Below, piece after piece: positions 15,173-15,780 of a stretch of 64,000 nt of DNA. Each line of letters opens with the position of its first letter. Positions within the stretch are counted from its first letter, which is position 1. Source of the stretch: Pelagibius marinus (GTDB taxonomy: Bacteria; Pseudomonadota; Alphaproteobacteria; Kiloniellales; Kiloniellaceae); assembly GCF_014925385.1 (NCBI RefSeq), contig NZ_JACSDK010000005.1, positions 62,001 to 126,000 on the forward strand. Reading direction: 5' to 3'. A model generated the notes under the pieces. That model made no database searches. It was not told the origin of the DNA and was given only the letters and a program-made list of their open reading frames with translations. A program made the position numbers and the translations under genes.

Positions 15173-15248
15173 GCCGGCTTAGCTCAGCTGGTAGAGCACC
15201 TGATTTGTAATCAGGGGGTCGCGGGTTCGAATCCTGCAGCCGGCACCA
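15173..15248 (+). tRNA. tRNA-Thr (anticodon TGT)
   Basis: GCCGGCT pairs with AGCCGGC, the anticodon stem CCTGA/TCAGG holds TTTGTAA with anticodon TGT, and the T arm GCGGGTTCGAATCCTGC is intact. CCA is encoded at 15246-15248. Confidence 0.97.
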
Positions 15249-15444
15249 CCGTCCACAAGAACAAAGCCCTAATCTTCCGCTGCGCGTCGCTGCCTGCCGG
15301 CCGGCGCCCTTGGCGATCGTGCGTTACCGGCGCATAGTTGGGGACGACCGGCGCGCCAGTACATCTTCCCAAGATGTGTTGCAGCGGTATCGATCCGGTC
15401 ATCGCGCCTTGCGCGCCGGCGCCTCACAATTGGGAGTGCGCCCC

Positions 15445-15780
15445 ATGCTTATGAGCTCAAAGACAGCGCTCGCCTTGATGCTGGCGGCGGGCGCCCTGCT
15501 CGCGCCGTCACAGGGCTTCGCCTATACCTGATTCAATCCGGCCATCTGCAAGGCGATCTGCGGATCCGCGACCTGCCGTGAGGCGACCAAGGCCAGCTAC
15601 AAGCCTGTCGCCCGCTTTTCCGACAGCGACAAAAATCGCGAGCTGAGCGCGGCGCCGCGCGACAGTGCGGTGGCCGACGTCCTGCGGGCGGTGATGTCTG
15701 CGGAGGGTTCCGCGAGCGAGGGCTATACCTGCTGGAACCCGGCAATCTGTATCGCGGTCTGCGGCAAGAAGACCTGCTGA
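15445..15780 (+). CDS. small secreted Cys-rich protein with two matching modules; in-frame TGA replaces the first Cys of module 1
   Basis: From the ATG at 15445 (GGGAG 8 bases upstream) the frame encodes a signal peptide (MLMSSKTALALMLAAGALLA, cleavage after GFA), then Tyr-Thr, then TGA at 15529-15531. Reading through, the frame stays open for 82 more codons to the TGA at 15778. Right after the first TGA comes FNPAICKAICGSATC; the protein ends with YTCWNPAICIAVCGKKTC. The two modules align without gaps as YT[TGA or C][F/W]NPAICxAxCGxxTC, so the TGA stands where module 2 has cysteine. A polar linker of about 47 residues separates them. Either the TGA is read as selenocysteine, or a single TGC-to-TGA change has broken the gene. 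GATC-TGCG-GATC at 15555-15566, 24-35 bases after the TGA, could form a small hairpin where a bacterial SECIS lies, but it is weak. Function is unknown; four-Cys modules suggest metal or disulfide chemistry outside the cytoplasm. Confidence 0.6.

Follow-up and report, generated by a model that had tools for sequence, protein, structure and literature searches.

As set out in one published account (PMC9312934), a bacterial selenoprotein requires an in-frame UGA, a SECIS element, tRNA-Sec, SelB, SelA, and SelD; in a second source (PMC4561486), SelD is described as conserved in all genomes encoding selenoproteins. The bacterial selenoproteins with cysteine homologues covered in PMC9312934 have an in-frame UGA where the homologues have cysteine, a feature shared by a small open reading frame (ORF) of Pelagibius marinus (genome G000). 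Unlike the selenoproteins in PMC9312934, however, the ORF lies in a genome in which the selenocysteine machinery is undetected, and its SECIS candidate is not distinctive. The comparisons below suggest that this copy is most probably a recent nonsense allele, belonging to a family of exported proteins of disulfide type that is as yet uncharacterised.

The window, that is, the whole stretch of 64,000 nucleotides that was analysed, contains a 111-codon ORF at 15445-15780, with an ATG at 15445 and an in-frame TGA at 15529-15531 in the place of residue 29. Past this codon, 82 further codons stay open up to a terminal TGA (15778-15780). An earlier note on this DNA had described a frame open for 82 codons beyond the TGA and ending at the second of two modules, preceded by a ribosome site, and both points hold. 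The features of the locus are as follows.

15432..15436, + strand: likely ribosome-binding site GGGAG, 8 bases 5' of the ATG
15445..15780, + strand: 111-codon ORF with TGA at codon 29 and a terminal TGA; single genome copy, belonging to a two-module, cysteine-rich family
15445..15522, + strand: likely signal peptide of 26 residues, judged by eye; relatives share the layout
15523..15576, + strand: module 1, its first cysteine replaced by TGA
15529..15531, + strand: in-frame TGA; cysteine at this place in 7/7 two-module homologues
15577..15723, + strand: variable linker, resembling the linker of the Hyphomicrobiales MAG homologue (L037)
15724..15777, + strand: module 2, with 4/4 cysteines

An alignment of the two 18-residue modules, 15523-15576 and 15724-15777, needs no gaps, and 13 residues coincide when the TGA is typed as cysteine; the TGA falls where module 2 has cysteine, as had been claimed. 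In the ORF frame, the codon score is 0.22 bits per codon 5' of the TGA versus 0.225 bits 3' of it, in agreement with the normal codon use previously noted after the TGA, and it is negative in all five of the other frames (scores computed against five neighbouring genes of the window). Since codon scores hold across the TGA and homologues exist, the ORF is a real gene.

Homologues were found in genome_contigs with a degenerate DNA pattern for NPAIC-x-A-x-CG in which the TGA position was left free. This pattern matched 27 stretches, eight of which were retained as relatives, seven with two modules and one with a single module. The two-module relatives belong to Mesorhizobium (L030, L045, and L047, the last on a contig that ends before the final cysteine of module 2), Ancylobacter (L043 and L048), Kaistia (L049), and a Hyphomicrobiales MAG (L037). 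Like the window protein, they combine an N-terminal hydrophobic stretch with two modules, Y-[TK]-C-x-NPAIC-x-A-V-CG-x3-C, separated by a variable linker. Unlike it, they have cysteine at the first place of module 1 (7/7), encoded by TGC in every case; the comparison with homologues proposed in the earlier note therefore returned cysteine, and TGA in none. The single-module relative, from Sphingomonas deserti (L029), shares the core NPAIC-x-A-I-CG after a hydrophobic N-terminus (family profile E 5.7e-10) but differs in having one module only, Cys-Cys pairs, and one extra residue before NPAIC. Each of the eight genomes with relatives yielded one profile match, free of stops inside the match (8/8).

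With the TGA read as cysteine, the window ORF is 42-47% identical to six of the two-module relatives and matches the family profile at E 2.9e-37, a profile that includes the window sequence itself. Cysteine is present at seven of the eight module positions in the window copy, with TGA at the first, and this shortfall marks it as a broken family member. Of the 29 columns that do not vary among the six relatives, 25 are retained in the window copy; the four departures are the TGA, an alignment gap, a V to I change, and an L to V change. The gene is without other clear lesion, though a long-dead pseudogene would show some. One severe lesion in a sequence that otherwise resembles the family is probably recent, or else the base is wrong.

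Family members carry the module pattern C-x5-C-x3-C-x4-C twice per protein, and in G000 the codon for the first cysteine of module 1 is TGA. Ordinary release-factor termination would end translation after residue 28, and the product would consist of the likely signal peptide plus Tyr-Thr. With a signal peptide and two residues as the only product, no mature protein would be expected and the copy would probably be non-functional. The two readings offered in the earlier note, a fresh nonsense mutation and a small exported selenoprotein, thus fared differently: the sequence supports the former, with the base taken as given, whereas the latter does not hold.

A wrong base, arising from a base-calling or assembly error in a strain that carries an intact gene, is an unlikely explanation. 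It would account for a gene that is otherwise intact, with module 1 departing from the invariants of the six relatives only at the TGA and at one V-to-I change, and the draft assembly comprises 35 contigs. However, the ORF shows no other fault, and single-base substitution errors are rare in long-contig drafts. Some full-length protein, enough for function, might alternatively be made by readthrough of a leaky UGA by a near-cognate tRNA. The frame and codon use are kept 3' of the TGA, so that selection may still act there. Nevertheless, the sole tRNA-Trp in the window has a CCA anticodon, TGA serves as the stop of three of the five neighbouring genes examined and of the ORF itself, and the base next to the TGA is T. 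A T after TGA provides a comparatively efficient termination context. Readthrough of this kind is very unlikely.

Genuine decoding as selenocysteine has points in its favour, as a TGA/Cys pair with cysteine-bearing homologues is the usual signature of a selenoprotein and coding sequence lies on both sides of the in-frame UGA. Such homologues do not single out selenocysteine, though, because a nonsense mutation of a cysteine codon produces them too, and TGA occupies this place in 0/7 two-module homologues. The earlier note had also considered it improbable for a stop arising at random to coincide with a conserved cysteine, and this is wrong for the present gene. With codon 29 set aside, a stop can arise by a single-base change in 33 ways, spread over 27 codons of the ORF; cysteine codons account for 7/33 of these routes and for 7/11 of the routes that make TGA, with no weighting for mutation type. 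By chance, a nonsense change would therefore hit a cysteine codon about one time in five, and a TGA-making change would do so more often than not. Since cysteine codons are one step from TGA, a cysteine-rich gene has many positions at which a false TGA/Cys pair could arise, a pitfall for searches of this type.

To look for the decoding machinery, profile searches were run on G000 (5,437,350 bases in 35 contigs, 98.35% complete and 0.08% contaminated). SelA gave 0 matches there, in a search whose controls were positive in 4 of 14 cases, E. coli among them. The top match to SelB reached 199 bits, below the cut-off of 242.25. Matches of 181-199 bits are common to many relatives, and the cut-off was passed in only one of 58 genomes (G011); judging from their length, the 199-bit matches are probably EF-Tu. 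For SelD, the top match in G000 was 52.8 bits against a cut-off of 125. Of the six matches to the tRNA-Sec model in G000, two exceeded the gathering score, at 51.3 and 47.7 bits, and ARAGORN identified both as tRNA-Ser. This search scored 60 of the 1069 first-look candidates, under stricter filters; 60 were also scored in G011, in which the true gene was recovered. None of the genes that the earlier note had named for this purpose (selA, selB, selC, and selD) was thus detected in G000. The formate dehydrogenase alpha profile had 16 matches in this genome, none over the cut-off and none containing a stop.

Genome G011, from the same taxonomic family, provided a positive control, with SelB at 390 bits, SelD at 427.5 bits, and a tRNA-Sec match of 74.7 bits that ARAGORN also calls tRNA-Sec. 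These clear matches show that the searches work; at 87% complete and 8% contaminated, G011 is informative as a search control and not as evidence about the family. On a 7-kb contig of G011 (C329), selD, selC, and selB lie together (C329:3645-4574 and locus L004, C329:4400-6970). Given the 8% contamination mark, this contig may be foreign. With selB, selC, and selD on one contig there, the loss of a single locus from an incomplete assembly could conceal all three at once, and for a genome that is 98.35% complete we put this at a very slight chance.

A hairpin with an 8-base loop starting 19 bases 3' of the TGA, and with G in second place, fits a loose bSECIS rule. Compared with dinucleotide shuffles, stretches of 42, 57, and 81 bases around or after the TGA have z values of 0.04, 0.28, and 0.62, with equal or better folding in 97, 121, and 146 of 200 shuffles, respectively. 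Further, among the window's TGA triplets (both strands), the same rule is passed by 431 of 1434 when 42 bases are considered and by 593 of 1433 when 54 bases are considered. Because 30-41% of the TGA triplets pass and shuffled sequences fold alike, the hairpin is evidence neither for nor against selenocysteine. That a loose SECIS rule passes about a third of the TGA triplets in this GC-rich DNA is a second pitfall. Between 14900 and 16300, no Rfam model scored over its gathering threshold except for the upstream tRNA-Thr, and a promoter and terminator scan found nothing.

With SelA, SelB, SelD, and tRNA-Sec undetected in G000 and cysteine in 7/7 of the two-module homologues found, the exported selenoprotein offered earlier as one of two readings runs into the refuting condition that the note itself had set, and a genuine selenoprotein at this locus is barely credible. 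Decoding of the UGA in a wider sense, either as selenocysteine with unassembled machinery or by an unrecognised route without SelA, SelB, and SelD, is extremely unlikely; if true, module 1 would carry a selenol or another residue within an exported, disulfide-stapled protein. A tempting selenoprotein lead is thereby closed, and the more modest gain is a family of small double-module proteins whose genes often adjoin an AraC-family regulator.

This family, of which the window copy appears to be a recent nonsense allele, is rare or patchy in the genomes sampled. A single-sequence search of 58 relatives with the window protein (P0001) recovered itself alone (1/58). Within the genus at E 10, its best non-self match had E 0.028, and a motif scan of the loci found no module. 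In the order at E 0.01, matches occurred in 2/61 genomes, one being the protein itself and the other L025, which was dropped after its frames were read and found to be without an NPAIC core. P0001 had no confirmed match in genome_contigs and viral_contigs and no match in plasmids and phages; similarly, a Mesorhizobium homologue had no match in plasmids, and the DNA patterns matched 0 viral contigs. In a search across the phylum (398 genomes, up to 12 candidates scored per genome listed), a profile including the window sequence recovered the window copy only.

Several further candidates were rejected. The other 19 of the 27 pattern stretches were without the four-cysteine module, each lying across a longer open stretch in another frame (at least 237 codons). 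In a Bryobacteraceae MAG (L028), a TAG aligns to the place of the TGA, and in Hymenobacter (L031) a TGC at this place is followed by an immediate stop; the rest of the module is absent from both, and they were read as chance matches. Across the class, a module profile had matches with E values up to 0.1 in 54 of 385 genomes, the window's own genome included; apart from the window copy, these were weak. Of the six read from other genomes, L054, L055, L056, L061, and L062 have no family resemblance and were judged to be background, as was L058, whose 52-residue frame contains PPAICSAVCGATGC but not the first cysteine. A weak module-like stretch is also present elsewhere in G000 (C15:19868-19921, in locus L083 at G000:C15:18500-21500; E 0.008), 3' of what by eye resembles a mobilisation-type gene. 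It lacks two of the four module cysteines, leaves no space for a signal peptide, and is probably a chance match.

The small double-module proteins of Alphaproteobacteria apparently constitute an undescribed family. Four proteins were scanned against Pfam and four against NCBIfam, and none matched a family over its cut-off; the Pfam matches to Keratin_B2_2 and Gamma-thionin, at 15.2 and 14.2 bits, are below their gathering cut-offs of 27 and 25.1. A literature text search for NPAIC returned unrelated titles among the matches listed. A low-confidence structure model (mean pLDDT 61.5) assigns to module 1 a strand at 26-28, a helix at 32-39, and a strand at 43-45, and to module 2 a helix at 99-106; the four cysteines of each module would be placed for two disulfides. 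Values of dN and dS over the 17 codons per module are too noisy to use. Intact modules are probably disulfide-stapled strand-helix-strand units acting outside the cytoplasm, and intact members perhaps have an exported, disulfide-stabilised role that is induced under stress.

The gene neighbourhood offers one recurrent association. An AraC-family regulator adjoins the two-module gene in five of the seven loci (8 kb each, 7.8 kb for L047), in contrast to the window, which has no match to it. With the regulator of L049 as the query, those of L043, L045, L047, and L048 are 55-63% identical; in three loci the regulator is encoded upstream in the orientation of the two-module gene, and in two it is divergent. 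The AraC-family match in L030 is partial (31%), and L037 and L029, like the window, have none. This neighbouring regulator perhaps controls the intact genes. In the window, the cupin-like neighbour (P0002) is matched in five of eight same-genus genomes, its own included, and the 3.3-kb loci around it in four of these (L006-L009) contain no module and no tRNA. A tRNA-Thr (TGT) is located at 15173-15248 of the window and ends 196 bases 5' of the ORF. Both this tRNA-Thr and the gene are missing from the four same-genus loci, and the gene may have arrived at a tRNA site.
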